Part shown: in pieces, positions 31,804 to 45,362 of the stretch
Layout: every line of letters begins with the position of its first letter
How positions within the stretch are numbered: the stretch's first letter is position 1
Source of the DNA: Fundidesulfovibrio agrisoli
GTDB taxonomy: Bacteria > Desulfobacterota > Desulfovibrionia > Desulfovibrionales > Desulfovibrionaceae
NCBI RefSeq assembly: GCF_022808715.1
Contig: NZ_JAKZKX010000002.1
Location: 64,580 to 128,579 of the forward strand
Direction: 5' to 3'
DNA length: 64,000 nt
Translations under genes and position numbers: made by a program
The notes under the pieces: model-generated
Told to the model about the DNA's origin: nothing
What the model saw: only the letters and a program-made list of their open reading frames with translations
The model's database searches: none

Positions 31804-32844
31804 ATGACCATGATGAAAGGCATGAAGGCCATCCCCGTCCGGGAGGCCGTGGGCACGGTCCTGGGGCACGACATCACCCGCATAGTGCCGGGTCAGTCCA
31901 AAGGTCCGGCCTACCGCAAGGGCCACGTCATCACCCGGGAGGACATCCCGGGCCTGCTCACCGTTGGCAAGGAGCACATCTACGTCTTCGACCTGAGCCT
32001 GGGCATGGTCCACGAGGACGACGCGGCCCTTCGCCTGGCGCACTGCGCCAAGGGGCGCGGCATCACGCTCTCCTCCCCTTCGGAGGGCAAGGTGACGCTG
32101 CGGGCGGCCCACGACGGCCTGCTCAAGGTGGACGCGGAGCGCCTGACCACCCTCAACACCATCCCGGACATCGTTTTCGCCACGGCCCACTCCAACCAGC
32201 AGGTGCGCGCGGGCCAGCCCGTGGCCGGAACCCGCGTGGTGCCCCTGGTCATCGAGGAGGAGAAGTTGAGCCGCGCCGAGCTGGTGCTCGAAGGCCCGCC
32301 GCTGGTGGAGGTGAAGCCCTTCCGGCCCACGCGGGTGGGCATGGTGACCACCGGCAGCGAGGTGTTCACCGGGCGCATCCAGGACGGCTTCGGCCCCGTG
32401 GTGCGCCGCAAGTTCGAGGCCCTGGGCAGCGATGTGTTCCGCCAGATCATCGTCAATGACGAGATCCCCATGTGCGTGAACGCCATCCGCGAGCTGCTGT
32501 CCCAGGGGGCGGAGATGATCGTGGTCACGGGCGGCATGTCCGTGGACCCCGACGACCAGACGCCCTCCTCCATCCGCGAGGCCGGGGGCAAGGTGGTGGG
32601 CTACGGGGCACCGGTGCTGCCCGGGGCCATGTTCCTGCTGGCCAGCATCGGCAAGGTGCCCGTGCTCGGGCTGCCCGGGTGCGTCATGTACCACAAGGCC
32701 AGCATCTTCGACCTGATCGTGCCCCGGCTCCTGGCTGGCGACACCATCGAAAAGCGCGACATCGCGGCGCTGGGCCACGGCGGGCTGTGCATGGCCTGCC
32801 CCGAGTGCCGCTATCCCATCTGTCCGTTCGGAAAAGGCCACTGA
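31804..32844 (+). CDS. MoeA/MogA-type molybdopterin-binding protein with Cys-rich tail
   Basis: A 346-residue protein. Residues about 1-175 look like the N-terminal MoeA-like region ('VREAVGTVLGHDITRI', 'GKVTLRAAHDGLLKVD'). Residues about 180-310 form the MoCF_biosynth (MogA/MoaB-like) domain with 'VGMVTTGSEVFTG', 'IVVTGGMSVDPDDQTP' and 'LGLPGCVMYH', the molybdopterin-binding loops. The C-terminus ends in a distinctive CMACPECRYPICPFGKG, with four cysteines, not present in standard MoeA. Likely role: molybdenum insertion or cofactor handling for the aldehyde oxidoreductase encoded 72 bases downstream. AAGGAG precedes the ATG. Confidence 0.82.
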   Translation: MTMMKGMKAIPVREAVGTVLGHDITRIVPGQSKGPAYRKGHVITREDIPGLLTVGKEHIYVFDLSLGMVHEDDAALRLAHCAKGRGITLSSPSEGKVTLRAAHDGLLKVDAERLTTLNTIPDIVFATAHSNQQVRAGQPVAGTRVVPLVIEEEKLSRAELVLEGPPLVEVKPFRPTRVGMVTTGSEVFTGRIQDGFGPVVRRKFEALGSDVFRQIIVNDEIPMCVNAIRELLSQGAEMIVVTGGMSVDPDDQTPSSIREAGGKVVGYGAPVLPGAMFLLASIGKVPVLGLPGCVMYHKASIFDLIVPRLLAGDTIEKRDIAALGHGGLCMACPECRYPICPFGKGH

Positions 32845-32916
32845 TCCCGGGACGCTGGAGCGCACCCGGGCCATACGCGACACACGACCTCAACCCATGC
32901 GAGAAGGAGGCAGGGA

Positions 32917-35640
32917 ATGATCAAGCGGAGCCTGATTATCAACGGCAAACCCCAGACCGTGGTGGTGGACCAGGAAGAGACCCTGGCCAACGTGCTGCGC
33001 AAGCAGCTCAAGCTCACCGGCACCAAGGTCGGTTGCGGCGAAGGCCAGTGCGGCGCCTGCAACGTGATCGTCAGCGGCAAGCTTACGCGCTCCTGCGTGA
33101 CCAAGATGAAGCGCGTGGCCGACGGGGCCAACATCTACACCATCGAAGGCCTGGGCCAGCCCGGCAACCTGCACCCGCTGCAACTCGCCTGGATGGTGCA
33201 CGGCGCGGCGCAGTGCGGTTTCTGCTCCCCCGGCTTCATCGTCTCCGCCAAGGCCCTGCTCGACGCCAACGCCGACCCCACCCGCGAGGAAGTGCGCGAG
33301 TGGTTCCAGAAGAACCGCAACGCCTGCCGCTGCACCGGCTACAAGCCCCTGGTGGACGCCGTGATGGACGCCGCCAAGGTGCTCCAGGGCAAGCTGAAGA
33401 TGAGCGACCTGGCCTTCAAGCTGCCCAAGGACGGCCGCATCTGGGGCACCAACTATCCCCGCCCCTCCGCCGAGGCCAAGGTCACCGGCACCTGCGACTA
33501 CGGCGCGGACCTGGGCGTGAAGATGCCCTGCGGCACCCTGAAGCTGGCCCTGGTGCAGGCCACCGTGTCCCACGCCAACATCAAGGGCATCGACACCTCC
33601 GAAGCCCTGAAGATGCCCGGCGTGCACAGCGTGCTCACCCACAAGGACGTCAAGGGCAAGAACCGCATCACCGGCCTCATCACCTTCCCCACCAACAAGG
33701 GCGACGGCTGGGACCGCCCCATCCTCTGCGACGAGAAGGTCTTCCAGTACGGCGACGCCATCGCCATCGTCTGCGCGGACACCGAGGCCCAGGCCAAGGC
33801 GGCCGCCGCCAAGGTGAAGGTCGACCTCGAGGAGCTGCCCGCCTACATGAGCGCCCCGGCGGCCATGGCAGACGACGCCATCGAGATCCACCCCGGCACC
33901 CCCAACGTCTACTTCGAGCAGAAGATCGTCAAAGGCCCGGACACCAAGCCCGTGTTCGCCTCCGCCCCCGTGGTGGTGGAGGACGACTTCTACGTGGGCC
34001 GCCAGCCCCACCTGCCCATCGAGCCGGACGTCGGCTTCGCCTACGTCAACGACGAGGGCAAGCTGGTGATCCACTCCAAGTCCATCGGCCTGCACCTGCA
34101 CCTGTACATGATCGCCCCGGGCCTGGGCGTGGAAGCCGACAAGCTGGTGATGATCCAGAACCCGGCGGGCGGCACCTTCGGCTACAAGTTCAGCCCGACC
34201 ATGGAAGCCCTGGTGGGCGTGGCCGCGCTGGCCACCGGCCGCCCGGTGTTCCTCTGCTACGACTACCACCAGCAGCAGACCTACACCGGCAAGCGCTCCC
34301 CGTTCTTCATGAACGTGCGCATGGCCGCTGACAAGAGCGGCAAGCTCCTGGGCATGGAGACCGACTGGTCCGTCGACCACGGCCCCTACTCCGAGTTCGG
34401 CGACCTGCTCACCCTGCGCGGCGCGCAGTTCATCGGCGCTGGCTACTCCATCCCGAGCATCCGGGGCGAGGGCCGCACCGTGTGCACCAACCACGCCTGG
34501 GGCTCGGCCTTCCGGGGCTACGGCTCCCCGCAGAGCGAGTTCGCCTCCGAAGTGCTCATGGACGAGCTGTCCGAAAAGCTCGGCATGGACCCCCTGGAGC
34601 TGCGCTACCTCAACTGCTACCGCAAGGGCGACACCACCCCCAACGGCCAGGACCCCGAGGTCTACAGCCTGCCCGAGATGATCGACAAGCTGCGCCCCAA
34701 GTACGAGGCGGCCAAAGCCAAGGCCAGGAAGGACTCCACCGCCGCGATCAAGCGCGGCGTGGGCGTCTCCCTTGGCGTGTACGGCGCGGGCCTGGACGGC
34801 CCCGACGCCTCCGAAGCTTACGTGGAGCTCAACCCCGACAACACCATCACCATCTTCAACACCTGGGAAGACCACGGCCAGGGCGCGGACATGGGCACCC
34901 TGGCCACCGCCCACGAGGCCCTGCGCCCCATGGGCGTGAAGCCCGAGCAGATCAGGCTGGTGATGAACGACACCAGCGTGGCCCCCAACTCCGGCCCGGC
35001 GGGCGGCAGCCGCTCCCAGGTCATGGTGGGCAAGGCCATCGTGGCGGGCTGCGAGCTGCTCATGGCCGGGATGCGCAAGGCCGACAAGACATACCGCACC
35101 TACGACGAAATGGTGGCCGAGAAGATCCCCACCAAGTACACCGGGCAGTGGACCGCCCCGGCCACCCACTGCGACACCAACGGCGTGGGCAACCCCTTCA
35201 GCTGCTACATGTACGGCCTGTTCATGTCCGAAGTGGCCGTTGAAGTGGCCACCGGCAAGGTGACCGTGGAGAAGATGACCCTCGTGGCGGACCTGGGCAC
35301 CCTGGCCAACAAGCTCGTGGTGGACGGCCAGATGTACGGCGGCATCGCCCAGGGCATCGGCTTGGCCCTCACCGAGGACTTCGAGGACATCAAGAAACAC
35401 TCCACCCTGGTGGGCGCGGGCTTCCCCTACGCCCTGCAGATCCCGGACGACATCGAGCTCATGTACGTGGAGACCCCGCGCGAGTTCGGCCCCCACGGCG
35501 CGTCCGGCTCGGGCGAGCTGCCCCTGACCTGCCCGCACGCGGCGGTCATCAACGCCATCTACAACGCCTGCGGCGTGCGCATCACCAAGCTGCCCGCCCT
35601 GCCCGAAAAGGTGCTGGCCGGGCTCAAGGCCGCGAAGTAG
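32917..35640 (+). CDS. mop: Molybdenum aldehyde oxidoreductase (Mop, xanthine oxidase family)
   Basis: A 907-residue enzyme oxidising aldehydes to carboxylic acids. The plant-type [2Fe-2S] cluster uses C40, C45, C48 and C60. The second cluster uses C100, C103, C137 and C139. Length and these positions match the D. gigas Mop numbering as I remember it. The molybdenum domain runs from about residue 180 and includes 'GGTFGYKFSP', 'GSAFRGYGSPQSEFA', 'GGSRSQVMVG' and the active-site 'GSGELPL' with the catalytic Glu near residue 867. There is no FAD domain, as in D. gigas Mop, so electrons must leave through the Fe-S clusters to flavodoxin, ferredoxin or another partner. The cofactor should be molybdopterin cytosine dinucleotide. 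GAAGGAGG precedes the ATG. Confidence 0.97.
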   Translation: MIKRSLIINGKPQTVVVDQEETLANVLRKQLKLTGTKVGCGEGQCGACNVIVSGKLTRSCVTKMKRVADGANIYTIEGLGQPGNLHPLQLAWMVHGAAQCGFCSPGFIVSAKALLDANADPTREEVREWFQKNRNACRCTGYKPLVDAVMDAAKVLQGKLKMSDLAFKLPKDGRIWGTNYPRPSAEAKVTGTCDYGADLGVKMPCGTLKLALVQATVSHANIKGIDTSEALKMPGVHSVLTHKDVKGKNRITGLITFPTNKGDGWDRPILCDEKVFQYGDAIAIVCADTEAQAKAAAAKVKVDLEELPAYMSAPAAMADDAIEIHPGTPNVYFEQKIVKGPDTKPVFASAPVVVEDDFYVGRQPHLPIEPDVGFAYVNDEGKLVIHSKSIGLHLHLYMIAPGLGVEADKLVMIQNPAGGTFGYKFSPTMEALVGVAALATGRPVFLCYDYHQQQTYTGKRSPFFMNVRMAADKSGKLLGMETDWSVDHGPYSEFGDLLTLRGAQFIGAGYSIPSIRGEGRTVCTNHAWGSAFRGYGSPQSEFASEVLMDELSEKLGMDPLELRYLNCYRKGDTTPNGQDPEVYSLPEMIDKLRPKYEAAKAKARKDSTAAIKRGVGVSLGVYGAGLDGPDASEAYVELNPDNTITIFNTWEDHGQGADMGTLATAHEALRPMGVKPEQIRLVMNDTSVAPNSGPAGGSRSQVMVGKAIVAGCELLMAGMRKADKTYRTYDEMVAEKIPTKYTGQWTAPATHCDTNGVGNPFSCYMYGLFMSEVAVEVATGKVTVEKMTLVADLGTLANKLVVDGQMYGGIAQGIGLALTEDFEDIKKHSTLVGAGFPYALQIPDDIELMYVETPREFGPHGASGSGELPLTCPHAAVINAIYNACGVRITKLPALPEKVLAGLKAAK

Positions 35641-35654
35641 TATAGGCTGTGTAC

Positions 35655-35681
35655 AGGCTCCCCGCCCAGGCGGGGAGCCTT
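35655..35681 (+). terminator. Hairpin after mop
   Basis: AGGCTCCCCGCC / GGCGGGGAGCCT inverted repeat starting 15 bases after the mop stop, with a very short loop and no T run. It may attenuate rather than end transcription, because the next gene follows on the same strand. Confidence 0.5.
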
Positions 35682-35747
35682 GAACCACAAATCCAAGGCG
35701 GGGGCGGGCGGGAAACCGTCCGCTCCCGCAATACGCATGGAAGACGC

Positions 35748-38276
35748 ATGGACCAGCAGGAATTGCGAGACTGGGAAAACCGTTGCATCCAGGAGGAGCC
35801 GCCCTACTGCCAGGCGGCCTGCCCCATCCACGTGGACGCCCGCGCCTTCATGGCCCAGATGAAGGCCGGAAACGCGGACGCCGCACGCAAGATTCTCGAA
35901 AAGACCATGCCCCTGCCCGGGGTGCTGGGCTCCATCTGCGACCACCCCTGCGAGCTGGTTTGCAAGCGGCGCGAGGCGGGCGAGCCCCTGGCCATCGGCG
36001 CGCTGGAGCGCGCCTGCGTGCGCCTGGGCAGACCCGGCCCCAAACCCCTGGTGCTTCCATCCAAGGCCGGAAAGGCGGCTGTGCTGGCCGGTGGGCCGGG
36101 CGGCGGGCTGGCGGGCCTTACCTGCGCCTGGGACCTGGCCCGCAAGGGCTACGCCGTCACCGTGTTCACGCCCGAGGAACATGTGGGCGGCAGGCTGGCC
36201 GCGCTGCCGGAGCATGAGCTCCCCGCCCTGACACTTAAACTGGAACTTGAACGTTTGCGGGGCATGGGCGTGGAGTTCCTCACCAGGCAGGATTTTTCGC
36301 CCTGGGCACTGGACACGGTGCTCACGAATTTCGACGCCGTGTTCGCCGAATACGGCGCCCCCCTCTGCCCGCCCGCCAGGGAGGACGCCGACCCGCTGAC
36401 CCTCTCCGCCGGGCGCGAGAAATTATACTGCGGCGGCTGGCCCGGCCCGGACGGCAAGCCCTCCTCAATCTCCGAGGCGGCGGACGGCAGGCGCGCCGGG
36501 GCCTCCATGGACAGGACCATGTCCGGCGCGTCGCTCACGGCCTCGCGCGAGAAGGAAGGCCCCGTCCCCACGCGGCTGTTCACCTCCCTCAAGGGCGTGG
36601 AGCCAGCCCCACGCGTGGCCCCCTCCGGTGAGCACGGCCAGTACGCCGCGCCGGACGCCGCCGCCGAGGCCGCGCGCTGCCTGGACTGCCAGTGCCTGGA
36701 GTGCGTCAAGGTCTGCGCCTACCTGGAGCACTACAAGGGCTACCCCAAGAAGTACGCCCGCCAGATCTACAACAACGCGGCCATCGTGCAGGGCGTGCAC
36801 CAGGCCAACACCATGATCGACTCCTGCATGCTCTGCGGGCTGTGCACCGAGGTCTGCCCGGAGCGTTTCTCCATGGCGGATTTCTGCCTGGAGGCCCGGC
36901 GGGACATGGTGGAGCGCGGCAAAATGCCGCCCTCAGCCCACGAATTCGCCCTGGAGGACATGGCCTTCAACAACAGCCCGGCCTTCCGCCTGGCCGCAAG
37001 CGAGCCCGGCGCGACGGCCAGCGCCTACGCCTTCTTCCCAGGCTGCCAGCTGGCCGCCTCCCACCCGCACCACGCGGCCTCGGTTTACGCCTTCTTGCGC
37101 TCGCGCCTCAGCGGCGGGGTGGGCCTGATGCTGCGCTGCTGCGCCATCCCCGCCAAATGGGCCGGGCGGGAGGACCTGTTCGCGCAGGCCTGCGAGGAGT
37201 TGCTGGCGGACTGGCGCTCCCTTGGCTCCCCGGAGGTCGTCACGGCCTGCTCCTCCTGCCTGGCGGTGTTCAAGGAGCGCCTGCCGGAGCTCAAGGCCCG
37301 CTCCATCTGGGAGGTCTTCGCCGAAGCGGGCGCGCCGGAACCGGCCGGGATCAAGCCCGAAGCCCCGGTGGCCCTGCACGACCCCTGCACCCTGCGCCAC
37401 GACGCCCCGGCCCGCGAAGCCGTGCGCACCGTGCTGCGCGGCGCGGGCGTGCCCTTCGAGGAGCTGGAACTCACGGGCCTCTCCACCGAGTGCTGCGGCT
37501 ACGGCGGGCTCATGGGCAACGCCAACCCCGATCTCGCCAGGAAGGTCGCGGCCCGGCGCGCCTCGGAGACGCCCCTGGACATGGCGGCCTCCTGCTCCAT
37601 GTGCCGCGACAGGCTGGCCGCCGAGGGCAAGCGCGTCCGCCATGTTCTGGACTACCTCTTCCCCGCGCCGGATATGGCGGCCGACCCGGCAGCCAAAGGG
37701 CCGGGCTATTCCCAGCGGCACGAGAACCGCGCCCGGCTCAAGGCCGCCCTGCTGCGCGACATCTGGGGCGAGGAGCCCCCGGCCGGACCCGAAGCCCCGC
37801 AGGTGGACTACGCCCCGGGCGTGCCCGAGCTCATGGAGTCCCGGCGCATCCTGCGGGAGGACGTGCAGGCCGTGCTGGCCGAAGCCCGGCGCACGGGCAA
37901 ACGCATGGTGGATCACACAACGGGCCGCTACCTGGCAGGGCATAGGCCCCGCCGGGTGCAGTACTGGGTGGAGTACGCCGAGGAGGGCGGGCGCGTCACC
38001 GTGACCCGCGCCTGGAGCCACCGCATGGAATTGACCGGCCCCACGGGCACGGCCTCGGGCGAGGCGCCCACGCAGCACGTGTACATGCCCGAATCCGGCG
38101 ACTGGGCCTGCACCTGCGGGGAGCCGCTTGTTCCCGGCCCGGTGGTGGCGGGCTACCTGGGCAGCGCCTTCACCATCACCCTGCTGACCTGCGCGAAGTG
38201 CGGGCTGGAGCTGGTTCCCGAGGGCCTGGCCCTGGGCAAGATGGCCGAAGTGGAGCAACTGCTTGAGGACAAGTAG
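35748..38276 (+). CDS. Multidomain Fe-S/NAD-fold/CCG redox protein associated with Mop
   Basis: An 842-residue protein. Residues 1-95: a dicluster-binding Fer4_20-like helical domain with C13, C21, C25 and C64-x3-C-x3-C. About 108-300: a dinucleotide-binding segment starting 'AAVLAGGPGGGLAGLTCAWDLA', with a glycine insertion compared with a normal GxGPAG loop, and an apparently shortened reductase domain. About 310-370: two ferredoxin-like motifs (CLDCQCLECVKVC, CMLCGLCTEVCP). About 425-640: HdrB/HdrD-type CCG domain ('FFPGCQ', 'CSSCLAVF', 'DPCTLRHD', 'TECCGYGG', 'CSMCRDRL'). About 718-842: a separate domain with WACTCGE and CAKCG cysteines. Probably an electron-transfer hub for the aldehyde oxidoreductase. 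The ATG at 35748 gives the conserved 'WENRC' start. Confidence 0.82.
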   Translation: MDQQELRDWENRCIQEEPPYCQAACPIHVDARAFMAQMKAGNADAARKILEKTMPLPGVLGSICDHPCELVCKRREAGEPLAIGALERACVRLGRPGPKPLVLPSKAGKAAVLAGGPGGGLAGLTCAWDLARKGYAVTVFTPEEHVGGRLAALPEHELPALTLKLELERLRGMGVEFLTRQDFSPWALDTVLTNFDAVFAEYGAPLCPPAREDADPLTLSAGREKLYCGGWPGPDGKPSSISEAADGRRAGASMDRTMSGASLTASREKEGPVPTRLFTSLKGVEPAPRVAPSGEHGQYAAPDAAAEAARCLDCQCLECVKVCAYLEHYKGYPKKYARQIYNNAAIVQGVHQANTMIDSCMLCGLCTEVCPERFSMADFCLEARRDMVERGKMPPSAHEFALEDMAFNNSPAFRLAASEPGATASAYAFFPGCQLAASHPHHAASVYAFLRSRLSGGVGLMLRCCAIPAKWAGREDLFAQACEELLADWRSLGSPEVVTACSSCLAVFKERLPELKARSIWEVFAEAGAPEPAGIKPEAPVALHDPCTLRHDAPAREAVRTVLRGAGVPFEELELTGLSTECCGYGGLMGNANPDLARKVAARRASETPLDMAASCSMCRDRLAAEGKRVRHVLDYLFPAPDMAADPAAKGPGYSQRHENRARLKAALLRDIWGEEPPAGPEAPQVDYAPGVPELMESRRILREDVQAVLAEARRTGKRMVDHTTGRYLAGHRPRRVQYWVEYAEEGGRVTVTRAWSHRMELTGPTGTASGEAPTQHVYMPESGDWACTCGEPLVPGPVVAGYLGSAFTITLLTCAKCGLELVPEGLALGKMAEVEQLLEDK

Positions 38277-38970
38277 CGCCGCCGCCCCGCCCCTGTTCGA
38301 GCGGGAGGACTTCCGCGCCGTGGCCGGGCCCGCCCTGCGTCCCGGGGGCGAGGCCCTCACCGCCCGGCTGCTGGACCTGGCCCGGGAGCAAGCGCCTGGG
38401 CTGCTCGGGCCGGGCGCATCCGTGGCGGACATCGGCTGCGGCCGGGGCGCGAGCCTGCGTTTGCTGGCCGCACGCGGCTTCAGGCCCATTGGTCTGGAAC
38501 CGTCGGCCGAACTGCTGAACGAAGCACGATCACTGGCACCCGAAGCTCTTTTGCTGCGGGGCCGGGCCGAGGCTGTCCCCCTGCGCGGGGGGACTTGCCA
38601 GGCCGCGCTCTGCGAGTGCGCCCTCTCCGTCACCTCCGACCCGGACGCAGCCCTGGCCGAGATGCGCCGCATCCTCGCGCCCGGCGGTCTTCTGCTGCTC
38701 TCCGACCTGTATCTGCGCCAGTCCGGGGGCGGCTGCGGCAATCCGGCCCCCGGCTGCGCCTCGGGGGCCGTCACCCGCCTGGAGCTGGAATCCCGCCTGG
38801 AGCGCGCCGGGTTCGCCCTGATCGTTTTCGAGGACCACAGCCGACTCCTGGCCGAGCTGGCCGCCCGCCTGCTCTTCGCCGGGTTCGAGCGTGCAGAGCT
38901 TGGGCTCGGCTGCCAAGGCGGGGCGCGGCCCGGCTATTTCCTGTGCATCGCCCGAAAGGAGGCCCCATGA
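38263..38970 (+). CDS. Class I SAM-dependent methyltransferase of the Mop cluster
   Basis: A 235-residue methyltransferase. The SAM motif I is 'VADIGCGRGASLRLLAARG' near residue 55. The acidic end of beta2 is 'PIGLEPS', and the post-motif region 'ALCECALSVTSDPDAALAEMRRILAPGGLLLLSDLY' is that of the Methyltransf_11 group. The substrate is unknown. The likely start is TTG at 38263, overlapping the previous gene by 14 bases with GGAG seven bases before it. I recall an NCBI family named for D. vulgaris DVU_1556 with this neighbourhood. The stop overlaps the next start as ATGA. Confidence 0.8.
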   Translation: MRTSSAAAPPLFEREDFRAVAGPALRPGGEALTARLLDLAREQAPGLLGPGASVADIGCGRGASLRLLAARGFRPIGLEPSAELLNEARSLAPEALLLRGRAEAVPLRGGTCQAALCECALSVTSDPDAALAEMRRILAPGGLLLLSDLYLRQSGGGCGNPAPGCASGAVTRLELESRLERAGFALIVFEDHSRLLAELAARLLFAGFERAELGLGCQGGARPGYFLCIARKEAP

Positions 38971-39416
38971 GCCAATACATGCTGGACATCCTGCCCCTGG
39001 CCGCCAGGGGCTACTGCTGCAGCCAGATGCTGGGGCTGCTGGCGCTCCAGGCCCAGGGCGTGGAGAACCCCGGCCTCGTGCGGGCATTGGGCGGGCTGTG
39101 CCACGGCATGGGCCAGTGCGGGCGCACCTGCGGGGTGCTCACCGGCGGGGCCTGCGTGCTCGGCTACCACCTGGGCAAGGGCGCGGACCACGAGACCGCC
39201 TCGGACAAGGCCGACCTGGCCATTTCGGAATTCGTGGACTGGTTCACGGAGCGCACCGCGCCCTACGGCGGCACGGCCTGCGCCGACATCCTGGGCGAAT
39301 GCTTCGACGCCAAGCCGGACATGAGCCGCTGCGCGGACCTGATCGGCGAGGCCTGGGGCCGGATACTGACCATCCTGAACGATATCGGCGTGGACCCTTC
39401 CGAGGCCAGGGAGTAG
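38967..39416 (+). CDS. C_GCAxxG_C_C family redox protein
   Basis: A 149-residue protein of the C_GCAxxG_C_C family. Its ordered cysteines include C17-C18 ('ARGYCCSQMLGLL'), the helix 'LGGLCHGMGQCGRTCGVLTGGACVLG' and late cysteines in 'GTACADILGECFD' and 'MSRCADLIG'. The conserved cysteines in this family are thought to bind a cofactor or form redox disulfides; function is unproven. AGGAGG precedes the ATG, which overlaps the methyltransferase stop. I recall the name DVU_1555 family for homologues in the same context. Confidence 0.85.
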   Translation: MSQYMLDILPLAARGYCCSQMLGLLALQAQGVENPGLVRALGGLCHGMGQCGRTCGVLTGGACVLGYHLGKGADHETASDKADLAISEFVDWFTERTAPYGGTACADILGECFDAKPDMSRCADLIGEAWGRILTILNDIGVDPSEARE

Positions 39417-39421
39417 GCGGC

Positions 39422-40807
39422 GTGACCCAGCCCCATTACGGCGAGACGCAGAGCCTCTGCCCCGTCTGCCTCAAGCGCCTGCCCGCACGCCGGGTGCAGC
39501 GGGACGGATTCGTCCTGCTGGAGCGCGAGTGCCCGGAGCACGGCCCCGTCAGCGTGCCCGTCTGGGTGGGCGGGCCGGACATGGACTCCTGGCGGCGGCC
39601 CAAGAAGCCCTCGCCGCCCAACCCCGAAGGCGGGCGCGCGCGTGGCTGCCCCTTCGACTGCGGGCTCTGCTCCGGCCACGCCCAGCACACCTGCACCGCC
39701 CTGGTGGAGATCACCCAGCGCTGCGGCCTGGGCTGCCCGGTCTGCTTCGCCGGGGCGGGCGGGGAGGCCTCGCCCCCCGACCCCGGGCTGGGCGATCTGG
39801 AGCGCATGTTCCGGGAACTGCGGGCCAAGGCCGGGCGCTGCAACCTGCAGCTCTCCGGCGGGGAGCCCACCATGCGCGACGACCTGGAGCAGGTGGTGCG
39901 CCTGGCCGTGGCCGCCGGGTTCCCCTTCGTGCAGCTGAACACCAACGGGCTGCGCCTGGGCGGCGAGCAAGGCTACGCCGAGAAGCTGGCCGCAGCGGGG
40001 CTCTCCTCGGTGTTCCTGCAGTTCGACGGCTCGGACGAGGCCTGTACGGCCCTGCGCGGCCGCCCGTTGCTCGCGAGAAAGCTGGCGGCCATCGAGGTCT
40101 GCGCGCGCGCCGGGCTGGGCGTGGTGCTGGTGCCCACCCTGGCGCGCGGCGTCAACGAGCGCGAATGCGGCGACATCCTGCGCCTGGCGTTGTCTTTTGG
40201 GCCGACGGTGCGCGGGGTGCACTTCCAGCCCATGGCCGCCTTCGGCAGGCGACCGAACACAGGTGAGGAGCGCGGCCTGCACGGCCCCACCCTGCCCGAG
40301 GTGCTCACCGCGCTGGAGGCCCAGAGCGGCGGCCTGGTCCGCGCTCGGGACTTCCACCCCCCCGGCTGCGAGCACGCGTTGTGCTCCTTCTCAGGCACGT
40401 TCCTGCGCCGGGGAGACGGCCTGGAGCCACTGGCCGGGCAGGCGTCCTGCTGCGACACCGGCCCAGGAGCGGACCGTGAGGCCCCCGCCGCCCTGGATGG
40501 AGCCATCAAATCCCGCGCCTTCACCGCCAGGCAGTGGGCAGCCTCCCCCGCTCCGCACGGAGGGATACCGGCCGACGACTTCGACCGCTTCCTGGCCCAG
40601 TCCGGAGCGCACAACCGCTTCTCCATCTCCTGCATGGCCTTCCAGGACGCCTGGACCGTTGACCTGGAGCGCCTCCAGGGCTGCTGCATCCATGTGCTGG
40701 CCCCGGACGGGGGCCTCGTCCCCTTCTGCGCCTACAACTTGACCTCGGCGCGGGGCCGGGCGCTGCACAGGGGCCGCCAACGTGAGCACACAGGGGGGGC
40801 CGGATGA
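39422..40807 (+). CDS. Radical SAM protein (TrsS-like) of the Mop cluster
   Basis: A 461-residue radical SAM enzyme. The N-terminal 75 residues carry a C-x2-C zinc-ribbon-like segment (LCPVCLKRLP) and 'ERECPEHG'. Then comes GCPFDCGLCSGHAQHTC, and the radical SAM cluster motif is C-G-L-G-C-P-V-C (CxxxCxxC) near residue 105. 'LQLSGGEPTMRDDLE' is the usual GGE motif, and 'FVQLNTNGLRL' follows. C-terminal cysteines include 'PPGCEHALCSF', 'ASCCDTG' and 'GCCIHV', suggesting auxiliary metal or Fe-S binding. Family relatives sometimes have selenocysteine; here all positions read Cys. Start is GTG at 39422. It overlaps the next gene as ATGA. Confidence 0.85.
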   Translation: MTQPHYGETQSLCPVCLKRLPARRVQRDGFVLLERECPEHGPVSVPVWVGGPDMDSWRRPKKPSPPNPEGGRARGCPFDCGLCSGHAQHTCTALVEITQRCGLGCPVCFAGAGGEASPPDPGLGDLERMFRELRAKAGRCNLQLSGGEPTMRDDLEQVVRLAVAAGFPFVQLNTNGLRLGGEQGYAEKLAAAGLSSVFLQFDGSDEACTALRGRPLLARKLAAIEVCARAGLGVVLVPTLARGVNERECGDILRLALSFGPTVRGVHFQPMAAFGRRPNTGEERGLHGPTLPEVLTALEAQSGGLVRARDFHPPGCEHALCSFSGTFLRRGDGLEPLAGQASCCDTGPGADREAPAALDGAIKSRAFTARQWAASPAPHGGIPADDFDRFLAQSGAHNRFSISCMAFQDAWTVDLERLQGCCIHVLAPDGGLVPFCAYNLTSARGRALHRGRQREHTGGAG

Positions 40808-41895
40808 TCTTCGCCCCGTCCCGCCCGGCCATGCGCAGCCCGCTGGACGCCTGGGTCTCCCTGGCCACGGGGCTGCACGGCCCCGAGCCGGACGCCCTGC
40901 GCCGCTGGCAGGCCCTGCGGCTGCTGGAGGCTGCCCGCTGGGCCAGGGAGCGCAGCCCCTTCTACGCCCGGCTGCTCAAGCACCTGCCCGACCCCATCCC
41001 GGACGACCCGGCCTGGGCCGCACGCCTGCCCTTCGTCACCACCCATGACTTGCGCGAGCACCACGAAGCCATGCTCTGCGTCTCGCAAGGCGAAGTGGAG
41101 CGCGTGGTCACGCTGAACACCTCGGGCACGACGGGCAAGCCCAAACGCCTCTTCTTCACCGGGGAGGACCTCGACGCCACCCTGGACTTCTTCCGGGTGG
41201 GCATGGCCAGTTTCACCGGCGTGGGGGACGTGGTGCTCATCCTGCTGCCCGGCCGGACGGAGCACGGGGCCGCCATGCTGCTGGCCAAGGCGTTGGCGGA
41301 GATCGGGGTGCGCCCGGTGCTCGCACCGCAGCCCTGCCCGCCGGAAGTGGCGGCCCGGCTCATCGCGGAGGAAGGCGTCACGTGCCTGGCCGCCCTGCCC
41401 TCCCAGCTTCGTGCCCTGCTGGAGCATTCTCCCGGCCCGCCACCCTGGTCTCCTGCCCCGGACCGGGCCCTGGACCGGGCCCTCCTCTCCGGCGAGCCCG
41501 TGGATGACGGCCTGCGCCAGGCCGCCGCCAAGGCCGGGATCGAGATTTTCGCCCACTACGGCCTCACGGAGACCTGCTTCGGCGGCGGCGTTGAATGCGG
41601 GGCGCACCAGGGCTACCATCTGCGCGAGGCCGACCTGCTGGTCGAGGTGGTCGAACCCGTCAGCGGCGACCCCGTGGCCAACGGCCGCCAGGGCGAGGTG
41701 GTGTTGAGCACCCTCAACCGGCGCGGCATGCCCCTGCTGCGTTACCGCACCGGGGACATGGGCCGGATGTTGCCCGGCCCCTGCGCCTGCGGCAGCCCGC
41801 TCAGGAGGCTCGGCCCCGTGGCCGGGCGGATCGTAACCGACGGGGGGGCCATCCAGGTGCTCACCCCGGAAAAAGGAACAGCGAACACGCCATGA
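40804..41895 (+). CDS. AMP-dependent CoA-ligase-like protein (PaaK type)
   Basis: A 363-residue adenylate-forming enzyme resembling phenylacetate-CoA ligase but shorter (PaaK is about 440). The P-loop-like 'TLNTSGTTGKPKRLFFT' near residue 105 and 'FAHYGLTETCFGGGVEC' near residue 250 are the A3 and A5-type motifs. 'GEVVLSTLNRRGMPLLRYRTGDMG' follows. The C-terminal lid domain is nearly absent, so it may adenylate or bind a substrate without forming a CoA ester. Position in the cluster suggests activation of a carboxylate in Mop maturation or of the product acid; both are guesses. The start overlaps the radical SAM stop and the end overlaps xdhC. Confidence 0.82.
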   Translation: MIFAPSRPAMRSPLDAWVSLATGLHGPEPDALRRWQALRLLEAARWARERSPFYARLLKHLPDPIPDDPAWAARLPFVTTHDLREHHEAMLCVSQGEVERVVTLNTSGTTGKPKRLFFTGEDLDATLDFFRVGMASFTGVGDVVLILLPGRTEHGAAMLLAKALAEIGVRPVLAPQPCPPEVAARLIAEEGVTCLAALPSQLRALLEHSPGPPPWSPAPDRALDRALLSGEPVDDGLRQAAAKAGIEIFAHYGLTETCFGGGVECGAHQGYHLREADLLVEVVEPVSGDPVANGRQGEVVLSTLNRRGMPLLRYRTGDMGRMLPGPCACGSPLRRLGPVAGRIVTDGGAIQVLTPEKGTANTP

Positions 41896-42914
41896 CAGAC
41901 CTGCTCAAGACGCTCAGCCTCTGGCTTTCGGAAGGCAAGCCCGTCGCATCGGCCACCATCGTCACCCATGAGGGCTCCACGCCCCGCTCCGCCGGGAGCA
42001 AGATGATCGTGCGCCCGGGCGGGGAGATGTTCGGCACGGTGGGCGGCGGCCTGGTGGAGGCCAGGGTGCTCCAGGCCGCCGCCCGGGTGCTCAGCGACGG
42101 GGTGCCGGGAATCATGGATTTCGACCTCACCGGGGAACTGGCGGCCGGGGCGGACATGGTCTGCGGCGGCAAGCTGCGGGTATTCCTGGAGCGCATCGAA
42201 CCCGGGGCCGAGGGCGCGCTCTACGCCGAGCTGCTGCGCAGGGTGGAGCGTGGCGAGCGCATGCTGCTGGCCGTGCCCATGGGCGGCGGGCCGCGCGCCC
42301 TGGTGCCCGCGCGCGGCGAGGCCTTGGGCGCACGGCTGCCCCAGGGGCTGCTGGAGGGCGCGCGCCAGGCCGGGAGGGACATCCGCGCCCCGGTCGTCTT
42401 TGAAGCCCTGGAGGAGCGCTGGTTCCTGGAGCCCTGGGCCGGGCCGTCGCCGCTCTACATCGCCGGGGCGGGGCACGTGTCGCGCCCCACGGCCAGGGTG
42501 GCGTCCATGACCGGGTTTCGCGTCACGGTCATGGACGACAGGCCCGAGTTCGCCAACCGGGACCGCTTCCCCGAAGCGCACGAGCTCATCGTGGAGGACA
42601 TGCGCACCTGCCTGCGCAGCAAGGCGATAGGCCCGGACGCCTCCGTGGTGATCGTCACGCGGGGGCACGTGGGCGACGCCGACGTGCTGGCCCAGGCCCT
42701 GCGCACCCAGGCGGGCTACATCGGCATGATCGGCAGCCGCCGCAAGCGCGACAGCGTGTACGGCAAGCTGCGCGCCCAGGGCTTCACGGACGCCGATTTC
42801 GAGCGCGTGCGCTGCCCCATCGGGCTTGATATCGGGGCCGAGACCCCGGAGGAGATCGCTGTGAGCATCCTGGCCGAGCTCATCCAGGCCAGGGCCGCCA
42901 GGGGAGCCGCATGA
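41892..42914 (+). CDS. xdhC: XdhC/CoxI family molybdoenzyme maturation protein
   Basis: A 340-residue protein. It has an N-terminal XdhC_CoxI domain ('VTHEGSTPRSAGSKMIV', 'GTVGGGLVEARV') and a C-terminal Rossmann domain ('LYIAGAGHVSRPTARVASMTGFRVTVMDDR', 'VVIVTRGHVGDADVL', 'YIGMIGSRRKR'). XdhC proteins bind the molybdenum cofactor and mediate its sulfuration and insertion into xanthine-oxidase-family enzymes, here most plausibly Mop. Full length. Coupled by ATGA overlap to the gene before it. Confidence 0.93.
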   Translation: MTDLLKTLSLWLSEGKPVASATIVTHEGSTPRSAGSKMIVRPGGEMFGTVGGGLVEARVLQAAARVLSDGVPGIMDFDLTGELAAGADMVCGGKLRVFLERIEPGAEGALYAELLRRVERGERMLLAVPMGGGPRALVPARGEALGARLPQGLLEGARQAGRDIRAPVVFEALEERWFLEPWAGPSPLYIAGAGHVSRPTARVASMTGFRVTVMDDRPEFANRDRFPEAHELIVEDMRTCLRSKAIGPDASVVIVTRGHVGDADVLAQALRTQAGYIGMIGSRRKRDSVYGKLRAQGFTDADFERVRCPIGLDIGAETPEEIAVSILAELIQARAARGAA

Positions 42915-43035
42915 CAAGGCCGGCGAACCTCGGGGGGCGGGCCGCGACACGGCGATGGACTGGGCCAAGCACATACCGCATGGCAACGCCGATGAAATCC
43001 CGTGCGCGGGGAAACTCCGCGCTTCTCTCAAGACC

Positions 43036-43701
43036 ATGGGCCTGACAGTCCACCTGCTGCGCCACGGCAAGACCGCCAGGGAGGAGCCCTGGCGCTTCCT
43101 GGGCCAGCGCGACGCCCCCCTCTCGGATGCCGGGCGGGAGCAGATGCGCCGCTGGCGCGACGAATTCTCCTGCCTGGACTTCGCCGGAGCCTGGTGCTCT
43201 GACCTGGCCCGCTGCCGGGAAAGCGCCGAACTGGTGCTGGCGGGCCGGGGACTCGCGGCCACTCCCGTGCCCGGTTTGCGGGAGATCTCGCTTGGGGAGT
43301 GGGATGGCCTGAGCGTCGAGGAGGTGCGCCGCGGCTACCCCGGCCTCTATGAGGCCCGCGGCGCGGACATCGCCGGTTTCAGGCCCCCCGGCGGCGAGAG
43401 TTTCGAGGATCTTGCGCTAAGGGCTGGCCAGGCCCTGGCCGACATCCTGCGGGAGGCGGCTGCCCGCCCGGCCGGCTGCCCCGAGGATGTTCGTTCGGGG
43501 GCGGGCAACGCCAACATCCTGCTGGTGGCCCACGCCGGGGTGAACCGCGCGCTCATCTGCGGGCTTCTGGGCCTTCCCCTGGGAAGGCTCTTCAACCTCG
43601 GCCAGGATCACGGCTGCCTGAACGTGCTGCGCTTCGGCCACGGCGAGCCGGTGCTGCATGCCCTCAACCGCCGCGCCGGTTGCGAGCGCCGCGCGACCTG
43701 A
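43036..43701 (+). CDS. Histidine phosphatase family protein
   Basis: A 221-residue phosphoglycerate-mutase-like phosphatase. The catalytic 'HLLRHGKTARE' begins at residue 5. 'WCSDLARCRESAELVL', 'LREISLGEWDGLSVEEV' and the second catalytic His in 'LLVAHAGVNRALICGLLGLP' are present. The sequence resembles CobC-type alpha-ribazole phosphatases, but no cobalamin genes are nearby. The ATG at 43036 puts the RHG at the usual depth; an in-frame ATG at 42955 would add 27 residues. Last gene of the Mop cluster. Confidence 0.85.
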   Translation: MGLTVHLLRHGKTAREEPWRFLGQRDAPLSDAGREQMRRWRDEFSCLDFAGAWCSDLARCRESAELVLAGRGLAATPVPGLREISLGEWDGLSVEEVRRGYPGLYEARGADIAGFRPPGGESFEDLALRAGQALADILREAAARPAGCPEDVRSGAGNANILLVAHAGVNRALICGLLGLPLGRLFNLGQDHGCLNVLRFGHGEPVLHALNRRAGCERRAT

Positions 43702-43937: not shown

Positions 43938-45362
43938 ATGGACAACGTGCGTTTGCAGACTCTCTCCGGCGCTCACGCGCTCGTGGATGGAACCGAAGTC
44001 GAGGCCCTGCGCGCCGCCCTGCGCGGCGGCCTGCTGCTGCCCGGCGATCCCGGCTATGACGCCGCCCGGTCGATCTGGAACGCCATGATCGACCGCAAGC
44101 CCGCCATGATCGTCCAGGCCCTTGGGGCCGTGGACGTGAAGGCAGCCGTGGACTTCGCCCGCAAACACGAGGCGGTCCTGGCCGTGCGCGGCGGGGGGCA
44201 CAACATCGCGGGCAACGCCGTCTGCGATGGGGGCGTCATGATCGACCTTTCACGCATGCGCTCCGTGCGCGTGGACCCGGAATCGCGCAGGGTGCGGGTC
44301 GAGGGCGGCGCGCTGCTCTCCGACCTGGATAAGGAGACGCAGGCCTTCGGGCTCGTCGTGCCGATCGGGATCAACTCCACCACCGGCATCGCCGGTCTCA
44401 CGCTGGGCGGCGGGTTCGGGTGGACCAGCCGGACCTTCGGCCTGACCATCGACAACCTGCTCTCAGTGGACATCGTCACCGCCGACGGGGAGCTGCGCCG
44501 GGCGGACGGCAGGCAGAACCCCGACCTTTTCTGGGCGGTGCGCGGGGGCGGCGGGAACTTCGGGGTGGTGACATCCTTCGAGTTCGGGCTGCACCCCCTC
44601 GGCCCGATGGTCGTCGCCGGGCTGCTGCTGCACCCCATCGCCGAAGCGCCGGCCCTGATGCGCGAATACCGCCGGTTGGCGGCCGAAGCCCCTGACGAGT
44701 TGAGCGCCTGGCTGGTGCTGCGCAAGGCCCCTCCGGCACCGTTCGTGCCCGCGGAGTGGCACGGCAAGGAGGTCATCATCATCGCGCTGTGCCACACCGG
44801 CACGCTCACGGCCGGAGAAAAGGACGCCCTCCCCTTCCGCAAGCTGGGCAAACCCATCGTGGATCTGGTCGGGCCGCATCCCTTCACCGGCTGGCAGGCC
44901 GCGTTCGACCCCCTGCTGACCCCTGGAGCCCGCAATTACTGGAAAAGCCACGATTTCAAGGAGCTCAGCGACGGGGCCTGCGACGCGCTCCTCGACGCCG
45001 CCAAGCGCTTGCCTACGGACGAATGCGAGCTGTTCGTGGGCCAACTGGGCGGACGGGTCAACCGCATCGCGCCCGAGGCCACGGCCTACCCGCGCCGCGA
45101 CGTGCGGTTCATCGTGAACATGCACACCCGCTGGCGCGACCCGGCCCAGGACGAAACCTGCATCGGCTGGGCGCGCGGCCTGTTCAAGGCGCTGGCGCCC
45201 CACGCCCTGGGGTCGGTGTACGTCAACTTCATGCCCTCGGACGAGAAGGACCGCATCCACGGGGCCTTCGGCTCCAACTACGAGCGGTTGGCCGAGGTGA
45301 AACGCCGCTACGACCCCATAAATCTGTTCAGGCTGAACCAGAACATTTCCCAGACGGGCTGA
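43938..45362 (+). CDS. FAD-binding oxidoreductase, berberine-bridge-enzyme type
   Basis: A 474-residue flavoprotein. The PCMH-type FAD domain (about 45-220) carries 'LAVRGGGHNIAG', whose His is the usual 8-alpha-histidyl FAD attachment. The second attachment site of doubly linked BBE oxidases is a Cys in a GxCPxVG motif; here it reads 'GINSTTGIAGLTLGGGFG', so FAD is probably linked by the His only. The BBE C-terminal motif 'YERLAEVKRRYDPINLFRLNQNI' is intact. No signal peptide. The substrate is unknown (sugars or aromatic alcohols in relatives). A GGAGG site precedes the ATG. Monocistronic. Confidence 0.85.
   Translation: MDNVRLQTLSGAHALVDGTEVEALRAALRGGLLLPGDPGYDAARSIWNAMIDRKPAMIVQALGAVDVKAAVDFARKHEAVLAVRGGGHNIAGNAVCDGGVMIDLSRMRSVRVDPESRRVRVEGGALLSDLDKETQAFGLVVPIGINSTTGIAGLTLGGGFGWTSRTFGLTIDNLLSVDIVTADGELRRADGRQNPDLFWAVRGGGGNFGVVTSFEFGLHPLGPMVVAGLLLHPIAEAPALMREYRRLAAEAPDELSAWLVLRKAPPAPFVPAEWHGKEVIIIALCHTGTLTAGEKDALPFRKLGKPIVDLVGPHPFTGWQAAFDPLLTPGARNYWKSHDFKELSDGACDALLDAAKRLPTDECELFVGQLGGRVNRIAPEATAYPRRDVRFIVNMHTRWRDPAQDETCIGWARGLFKALAPHALGSVYVNFMPSDEKDRIHGAFGSNYERLAEVKRRYDPINLFRLNQNISQTG

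Follow-up and report, generated by a model that had tools for sequence, protein, structure and literature searches.

Gene cluster around Mop

We describe a gene cluster in a stretch of 64,000 nucleotides from Fundidesulfovibrio agrisoli (contig NZ_JAKZKX010000002.1, positions 64,580 to 128,579; hereafter the window), which includes the gene of the molybdopterin-dependent aldehyde oxidoreductase Mop. Nine genes lie on the plus strand at 31804-43701 of the window, and open reading frames (ORFs) together with family profiles confirm the preliminary description of this DNA in this respect. The genes encode, in order, a MoeA-like protein, Mop, the multidomain protein Dicl, the S-adenosylmethionine (SAM) methyltransferase TrsM, the C_GCAxxG_C_C family protein DVU_1555, the radical SAM protein TrsS, the PaaK-like adenylate-forming enzyme DVU_1553, an XdhC-family maturation factor and a histidine phosphatase. 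Other genomes and TrsS loci are cited by G and L numbers, respectively.

Six products of the cluster pass curated NCBIfam cut-offs, covering seven families: Mop (NF045668), Dicl (NF045663), DVU_1557 (NF045645), TrsM (NF045667), TrsS (NF045646), DVU_1553 (NF045666) and XdhC (NF045664). NCBIfam already names most of the families (TrsS, DVU_1553, DVU_1556, DVU_1557, aldehyde-oxidoreductase XdhC). The window differs from them in that DVU_1557 is fused to Dicl and DVU_1553 has no C-terminal domain. Here and below, statements from the literature refer to the available excerpts of the cited papers. The Desulfovibrio vulgaris numbering given earlier, about DVU_1551-1559, fits the family names DVU_1553, DVU_1556 and DVU_1557, and DVU_1559 is the aldehyde oxidoreductase of that species (PMC10920352). 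TrsS is listed in a table of PMC13188914, with attribution to Haft and Tolstoy (mSystems, 2025). No published function for the Trs/DVU_155x families was found in the literature searched, and the string DVU155 has 0 occurrences in the available text of the D. vulgaris mutant-fitness paper PMC10102598. The neighbourhood is catalogued yet functionally unexplained.

The genes are tightly packed. Five of the six close pairs claimed earlier overlap or lie within 10 bases (Dicl-TrsM, TrsM-DVU_1555, DVU_1555-TrsS, TrsS-DVU_1553 and DVU_1553-XdhC). The sixth, Mop-Dicl, depends on the start codon: the tight spacing requires the GTG at 35649, but the Dicl family match starts at the ATG at 35748.

Mop and the Desulfovibrio gigas enzyme

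Mop of the window (32917..35640; NF045668, 1727 bits, cut-off 1100) has the Pfam domains Fer2, Fer2_2, MoCoBD_1 and MoCoBD_2. Its best matches in the PDB are 1sij/1vlb (1543 bits, full length) and 1dgj (1466 bits), the enzymes of Desulfovibrio gigas and Desulfovibrio desulfuricans, respectively. Mop of genome G020 is identical to the crystallised D. gigas enzyme across 412 compared residues, and on this identity G020 is taken to be the D. gigas genome. It has the same cluster as the window, with the order MoeA-like, Mop, Dicl, DVU_1557, TrsM, DVU_1555, TrsS, DVU_1553, XdhC. There are 11 PDB entries for this Mop sequence.

Until 2000, the D. gigas enzyme stood in as structural model of xanthine oxidase (PMC10223205). 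It is described with molybdopterin cytosine dinucleotide and two [2Fe-2S] clusters (PMC10223205, PMC12316806), has no flavin and does not require the sulfido ligand (PMC10223205). Flavodoxin is its putative partner, argued from docking and in vitro tests (PMC10223205), and the gene cluster is unmentioned in the available parts of PMC10223205 and PMC4287179. No report of heterologous expression of D. gigas Mop was found in the literature searched, as far as its excerpts go. A second MoCoBD_1 protein is encoded elsewhere in the window's genome (L002) and falls outside the Mop family at E 1e-100.

Dicl as a probable electron partner

Dicl (35748..38276; NF045663, 1005 bits) was noticed before as a multidomain Fe-S/CCG protein. 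This holds, but a complete C-terminal DVU_1557/DUF7479 domain had been overlooked. The order within the fusion is a GltD-like flavin-type domain, a 4Fe-4S part, two CCG motifs (residues 433-504 and 547-619), a domain of ~90 residues and then DVU_1557. The HdrB-type motif C-X28-42-CC-X25-42-CXXC occurs twice in 44/44 aligned rows, including the window (44 rows aligned out of 56 listed ORFs plus the window), and the window protein carries the flavin-type G-x-G motif. The AlphaFold2 (AF2) model of the Dicl-DVU_1557 fusion has a predicted local distance difference test score (pLDDT) of 94.2, and a Foldseek search with the Dicl model gives resemblance to Nfn/StnABC, EtfD, LutA and HdrB. With electron-transfer proteins of the HdrABC, Nfn-StnABC and LutAB type Dicl shares a flavin-type domain, 4Fe-4S and two CCG motifs in one chain. 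Unlike in these systems, Dicl of the window is fused to DVU_1557, and Pfam does not find Pyr_redox_2 in it; this domain is present in Dicl of L141.

The ~90-residue domain (37800..38090, plus strand, approximate borders) lies between the CCG part and DVU_1557. It is encoded as a separate small ORF beside DVU_1557 in the Mop-less loci L173, L174 and L176, and by eye in L220. Two of the separate ORFs were tested and have no Pfam match.

Mop does not have the flavin domain of xanthine oxidase, and Dicl, encoded directly downstream, has a flavin-type domain. From the domains, the adjacency and the co-inheritance of the two genes we infer that Dicl accepts the electrons of Mop.

Conserved tail of DVU_1557

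The DVU_1557 domain of the window (38100..38276, plus strand; NF045645, 78.2 bits, cut-off 60) comprises residues 818-875 of the ORF that begins at 35649, up to its last residue. The -LEDK codons are at 38262-38273 and the stop codon at 38274-38276, so the tail is the exact end of the protein. DVU_1557 has ~60 residues with two Cys knuckles, the first of which contains CxC in the window.

Among 109 distinct homologues above 50 bits, the last residue is Lys in 108 and the last four are -LEDK in 97; the most divergent Mop-less forms fall outside this floor and are tallied separately. When 105 homologues are aligned (50 % mean pairwise identity), the final Glu and the final Lys are conserved at 100 %. 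As a control, in ten other families of the same loci the commonest last tetrapeptide reaches at most 10/98 (Dicl) or 7/48 (MoeA-like, PFGK and SFGK). A ribosome-binding site of the downstream gene does not explain the tail, since E-D-K is encoded by all eight synonymous codon combinations and GAGGA is absent from 33/97; we therefore rejected this cause. That the C-terminus is nearly invariant speaks for a role of the tail as such, which might be modification, docking, or both. No report of a modified residue was found in the literature searched, within its available excerpts.

Variation of the tail is least where the locus also has Mop (n=63: LEDK 60, LEEK 2, MEDK 1). Where no Mop is in the stretch (n=53), the ends are LEDK in 38, LEEK in 4, IEDK in 3, LEGK and LSYK in 2 each, and LEAK, AKME, GKLQ and ETPC in 1 each; many of the LEDK-tailed stretches in this group are merely short. 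The ETPC tail belongs to an extra, divergent DVU_1557 copy in L110.

TrsS and its neighbours

TrsS (39422..40807, plus strand; NF045646, 585 bits, cut-off 490) is a radical SAM protein with an N-terminal zinc ribbon, related to the tetraether lipid synthase Tes. Tes is its nearest solved structure (PDB 7tol, profile match with E 1.5e-112), and the AF2 model of TrsS (pLDDT 74, 12 sequences) matches 7tom with a template modelling (TM) score of 0.72. Both proteins have the zinc ribbon, the radical SAM core and a C-terminal CCIH..PFC segment. However, TrsS of the window is under the cut-off of the Tes model NF045702 (309.6 bits, cut-off 450), is located with Mop and has Cys residues of its own: C316, C321 and C344 are invariant in 12 aligned TrsS sequences and are near the break between two blocks of the 7tol alignment.

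At E 0.001 Pfam gives the zinc ribbon and Radical_SAM only, and thus neither a SPASM domain nor an RRE, the recognition element of ribosomally synthesized and post-translationally modified peptides (RiPPs), is found in TrsS. A RiPP or a peptide-derived cofactor would be expected to involve a small protein with a near-invariant end near the radical SAM gene, and DVU_1557 near TrsM and TrsS is such a protein. Selenocysteine is an optional trait of the TrsS family. The trsS gene of the window has no in-frame stop, nor do the matches above cut-off of Desulfovibrionales and Desulfobacterota, and selenocysteine was rejected for these; the one TGA in TrsS of G728 lies right where the reading frame ends and is probably its stop.

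TrsM (38263..38970, plus strand; NF045667, 209.6 bits, cut-off 155) is a SAM methyltransferase of the DVU_1556 family. DVU_1555 (38967..39416, plus strand; PF09719, 83.5 bits, cut-off 27) follows it, and relatives of DVU_1555 lie between TrsM and TrsS in many loci. In different loci DVU_1555 and DUF5714 adjoin or are fused to TrsS; homology between the two is not supported (hhalign probability 0.6 %). A fusion of TrsS with a DUF5714 domain occurs in Desulfosporosinus (L105:9968-12139), and in L190 DUF5714 is directly upstream of TrsS. In Clostridium ragsdalei a CobW-family GTPase gene directly precedes an isolated TrsS (L100:8234-9334).

DVU_1553 (40804..41895, plus strand; NF045666, 394.8 bits, cut-off 300) is truncated in the window, as was stated earlier. 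Its C-terminal domain of ~100 residues is missing from the window, L073 and L077, and an open frame of the length of this domain is present in 22/25 rows. We also considered a hidden precursor peptide in the DVU_1553-XdhC gap of ~320 bases; this was rejected, as the sequence of the gap looks like the C-terminal portion of a DVU_1553 of full length.

Conservation of gene order

A scan with the TrsS alignment over a collection of 84,980 species gave 582 confirmed stretches, of which the best 80 were retained. Among these 80 are Desulfobacterota, Bacillota (Acetobacterium, Sporomusa, Clostridium tyrobutyricum, Desulfosporosinus), Chloroflexi, Spirochaetes, Alphaproteobacteria (Pleomorphomonas) and Synergistaceae. 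The same core order, Mop-Dicl-DVU_1557-TrsM-DVU_1555-TrsS-DVU_1553, is found repeatedly in Desulfobacterota, Bacillota, Chloroflexi and Synergistaceae.

Forty-nine TrsS loci are well covered, with at least 9 kb upstream and at least 3 kb downstream. The full seven-part core is present in order in 38/49 and Mop in 43/49, which exceeds chance. Of the other core genes, Dicl is found in 44, DVU_1557 in 43, TrsM in 42, DVU_1555 in 42 and DVU_1553 in 43. Genes of the molybdenum side are fewer (XdhC 26, MoeA-like 21, NTP transferase 30), so at these loci Mop is linked more closely with the Trs genes than with the molybdenum-cofactor genes. The histidine phosphatase is encoded in 27/49 and an aminotransferase class V in 4/49. 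TrsS stands alone, with no other core gene, in 5/49 (L100, L105, L115, L120 and L125).

Some loci have a reduced set. L193 has Mop, Dicl, DVU_1557 and TrsS side by side without any TrsM or C_GCAxxG match between them, and its contig stops at TrsS. Present in L190 are Mop, Dicl, DVU_1557, TrsS and DUF5714, with just weak matches of TrsM and DVU_1555 on the opposite strand. In L191 and L192 TrsS directly adjoins DVU_1557, there are no TrsM, DVU_1555 or DVU_1553 matches, and Mop is elsewhere in the genome. DVU_1557, TrsM and DVU_1555 are missing together in L081 of genome G047 (L081:7514-10022), where the ~90-residue part of Dicl looks by eye like a relic with stops; this module is apparently decaying. 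The cluster is genuine and ancient.

Co-occurrence of Mop and TrsS

In 59 genomes of Desulfovibrionales both Mop and TrsS are present in 21, Mop only in 2 (G037, and G032, where the contig ends within TrsM), TrsS only in 1 (G007) and neither in 35. DVU_1557 is above cut-off in 22 of the 59, and 21 of these are among the 23 with Mop. In 394 genomes of Desulfobacterota the corresponding numbers are both 38, Mop only 1, TrsS only 9 and neither 346. In 398 genomes from the phylum of the Desulfosporosinus genome G061 (Bacillota group) they are 28, 3, 0 and 367. Fisher tests give 4e-43, 6e-40 and 1e-12, with the genomes treated as independent, which they are not.

For Desulfobacterota, absence of Mop means no match at E <= 1e-250; G371, with TrsS cut by a contig end, is tallied as TrsS, and G114 and G439 (partial, under cut-off, no Mop match) and G115 (374 bits) are not. 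Genomes G286, G538 and G547, in which Mop is cut or partial and TrsS is absent, are tallied as Mop-only, and Mop of G050, split across two contigs, is tallied once. The 28 TrsS genomes of the G061 phylum include three under cut-off, and the counts there were made irrespective of kinship and completeness. In 21 checked genomes with a Mop-less or cut TrsS locus, Mop above cut-off is found elsewhere in 11.

Hence, the co-occurrence and the conserved order bear out the earlier claim that the accessory genes are functionally tied to Mop. As to the condition named there as refuting it, accessory genes often found without mop, the outcome is mixed: TrsS is without Mop in 9/47 TrsS genomes of Desulfobacterota and in 0/28 of the G061 phylum.

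Trs genes without Mop

An HdrD-like protein is recognised by profile near TrsM and TrsS in Mop-less G147, G186, G192, G209, G348 and G381; for that of G381 Pfam reports CCG and 4Fe-4S domains but not a flavin domain. Mop-less G173 has TrsM and TrsS with a Dicl fragment only. DVU_1553 is present in 6/7 of these Mop-less stretches (not in G147), and a DVU_1557 homologue in 7/7, that of G192 being weak (22 bits).

Genes for a 2-hydroxyglutaryl-CoA dehydratase-type protein and a BcrA/D-type ATPase are neighbours in G147. In G381 the Trs genes are beside TRAP-transporter, corrinoid protein, RACo and flavoprotein genes; in G209 RACo was tested and the remaining neighbours were assigned by eye. TrsS of G278 is on a 4.9-kb contig, and a 15.4-kb contig of G395 has a Dicl fragment and no Mop.

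Genome G007, estimated to be 100 % complete, has no Mop and encodes a tandem TrsS pair with a DVU_1553-type ligase and DUF5714; an HGD-D protein adjoins the pair. Another contig encodes a DVU_1557-like protein (20 bits, tail LEGK) beside a methyltransferase, with a ~90-residue-domain protein and an activase-like gene as neighbours by eye. The same tandem TrsS, DVU_1553-type ligase and DUF5714 occur in L134 (60-5367), a metagenome-assembled genome of Eubacterium, followed by a lipoate-ligase-type gene (PF21948; TIGR00545, 275 bits, cut-off 280). No Mop above cut-off was found in the L134 genome.

Molybdenum-cofactor genes and flanking genes

The MoeA-like protein (31804..32844, plus strand) has MoCF_biosynth as its one Pfam domain (PF00994, 76.9 bits) and probably handles the molybdenum cofactor. 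It scores 21-40 bits against MoeA-type equivalog models with cut-offs of 440-536; the label MoeA-like can be kept, but the protein is not MoeA itself. It has a Cys-rich C-terminal tail (32780-32844), perhaps a metal site, and PFGK or SFGK is the exact end in 14/48 relatives. XdhC (41892..42914, plus strand; NF045664, 396.7 bits, cut-off 350) is an aldehyde oxidoreductase maturation factor. A MobA-like nucleoside triphosphate (NTP) transferase is missing from the window, and a 45 % identical relative is encoded elsewhere in the same genome. Mod-type transport genes are near Mop in some relatives. All of these fit a supply of molybdenum cofactor; XdhC and MoeA-type proteins were described before as serving its insertion.

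The histidine phosphatase (42955..43701, plus strand; PF00300, 167 bits) is CobC-like; the family assignment stands, but the CobC model is missed (132 bits, cut-off 163). An FAD/BBE oxidase related to BagK/FevA1, though below cut-off (241 bits, cut-off 800), is encoded at 43938-45362 directly after the cluster.

Proposed role of the cluster

We tentatively suggest that the cluster encodes an aldehyde-oxidising electron-transfer machine, in which Mop electrons go to Dicl and TrsS with its partners acts on DVU_1557 or makes a group handled by it; we give this proposal somewhat less than an even chance. Mop would oxidise the aldehyde and, having no flavin domain, would pass the electrons to Dicl. 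The MoeA-like protein, XdhC and the MobA-like NTP transferase from elsewhere in the genome would serve the molybdenum cofactor. TrsS, usually with TrsM, DVU_1555 and the adenylating DVU_1553, would act on DVU_1557 or make the group that DVU_1557 handles. TrsS may act on DVU_1557, on Dicl, on a small molecule or, with lower likelihood, on Mop. In a more specific form, which we regard as unlikely, TrsS, with DVU_1553 and TrsM where they are present, turns the -LEDK end into a new redox or carrier group on the protein, by which electrons shuttle from the molybdenum hydroxylase to an HdrB-like protein or back, and a similar group is used by other low-potential enzymes in bacteria without Mop. In favour of the proposal are the co-occurrence of Mop and TrsS, the core order, the reduced loci L191-L193, the architecture and fold of Dicl, the conservation of the DVU_1557 tail and the joint absence of DVU_1557, TrsM and DVU_1555 from L081. 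Gene order, co-occurrence, protein-level conservation of the tail, Dicl architecture and Trs genes without Mop are observed, and the electron path, the role of DVU_1557 as target or carrier and the chemistry are deduced from them.

Several observations weigh against this proposal. G037 has a full-length Mop (1670 bits) with no TrsS above cut-off and no DVU_1557, so Mop can persist without the module, and G047 retains Mop, Dicl, TrsS and DVU_1553 without DVU_1557. Flavodoxin accepts electrons from D. gigas Mop in vitro (PMC10223205). Mop-less genomes that keep TrsS have drifted tails (IEDK, LEGK, LSYK, LEAK in L141, AKME, GKLQ), as would be expected if the tail docks to Mop or Dicl, but equally if it is a substrate of TrsS. 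The strict tail is not perfectly tied to Mop, since G278, G439, G071 and G077 keep LEDK and no Mop above cut-off was found there. Finally, the tail is LEDK or LEEK in L190-L193, where DVU_1553 and TrsM were not found alongside; these two enzymes are therefore not clearly needed for its conservation.

In the preliminary description the Trs enzymes were mainly thought to modify Mop or its molybdenum cofactor. The tight co-occurrence and gene order and the presence of XdhC and the MoeA-like gene in the same cluster agree with this, as do the oddities of D. gigas Mop: the dispensable sulfido ligand and an activation unlike that of desulfo-xanthine oxidase (PMC10223205). However, the genome taken to be that of D. 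gigas has the module, and its Mop, with 11 PDB entries, is described with the dinucleotide cofactor and the two [2Fe-2S] clusters alone (PMC10223205, PMC12316806), although a labile group could have been lost during purification. A role in Mop maturation only is also at odds with the 9/47 Desulfobacterota TrsS genomes without a Mop match, with Mop-less G007, which has TrsS, a DVU_1553-type ligase and a DVU_1557-like protein, and with G037, which has Mop without TrsS. Mop is strongly linked to the module, but support for direct maturation of Mop is weak, and modification of Mop seems to us unlikely. The other option raised there, an unusual redox carrier, fits better.

Radical SAM pathways build PQQ and mycofactocin, and the Trs enzymes may similarly build a small diffusible redox cofactor or carrier for Mop and Dicl, and for other oxidoreductases in Mop-less bacteria, with the DVU_1557 tail used for docking only. 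The Mop-less Trs genes beside low-potential systems in G147, G381 and G007, the tandem TrsS with ligase and DUF5714 in G007 and L134, and the greater strictness of the tail where the locus holds Mop are consistent with this. However, TrsS adjoins DVU_1557 in L191 and L192 without a match to the ligase, methyltransferase or C_GCAxxG families nearby, and no separate precursor gene was found in the DVU_1553-XdhC gap; we consider a diffusible product possible, though somewhat unlikely. Also unlikely is a purely metabolic pathway, in which Mop, DVU_1553 (by acid activation), TrsM and TrsS process one small molecule, with aldehyde oxidation as one of the steps and no maturation involved. Mop makes carboxylic acids, 22/25 rows have room for a full-length PaaK-like DVU_1553, and the Trs genes of Mop-less G381 neighbour TRAP-transporter, corrinoid/RACo and flavoprotein genes. 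Nevertheless, the window, L073 and L077 have a truncated DVU_1553, some TrsS/DVU_1557 pairs have no DVU_1553, TrsM or DVU_1555 found alongside, and a near-invariant protein tail is unexpected in a catabolic enzyme set. Last, TrsS might be a bacterial tetraether-type lipid synthase that is beside mop incidentally, given that 7tol/7tom, a tetraether/macrocyclic archaeol synthase, is the solved structure closest to it. The score of ~310 bits with the Tes model (cut-off 450) against 585 with the TrsS model (cut-off 490), the three TrsS-invariant Cys residues (C316, C321, C344) roughly at the break of the 7tol alignment, and the co-occurrence with Mop make this highly improbable.

The reading that we favour for a first test is an electron-transfer machine in which DVU_1557 is target or carrier. 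If Mop nearly always occurs with TrsS, and usually with Dicl and DVU_1557, the real partner of Mop and a possible new product of the radical SAM enzyme become testable. If the reading is true, a function would follow for several families that now bear descriptive names. The classic aldehyde-oxidising molybdenum enzyme, which several bacterial phyla have together with this set of uncharacterised genes, may belong to a larger machine.

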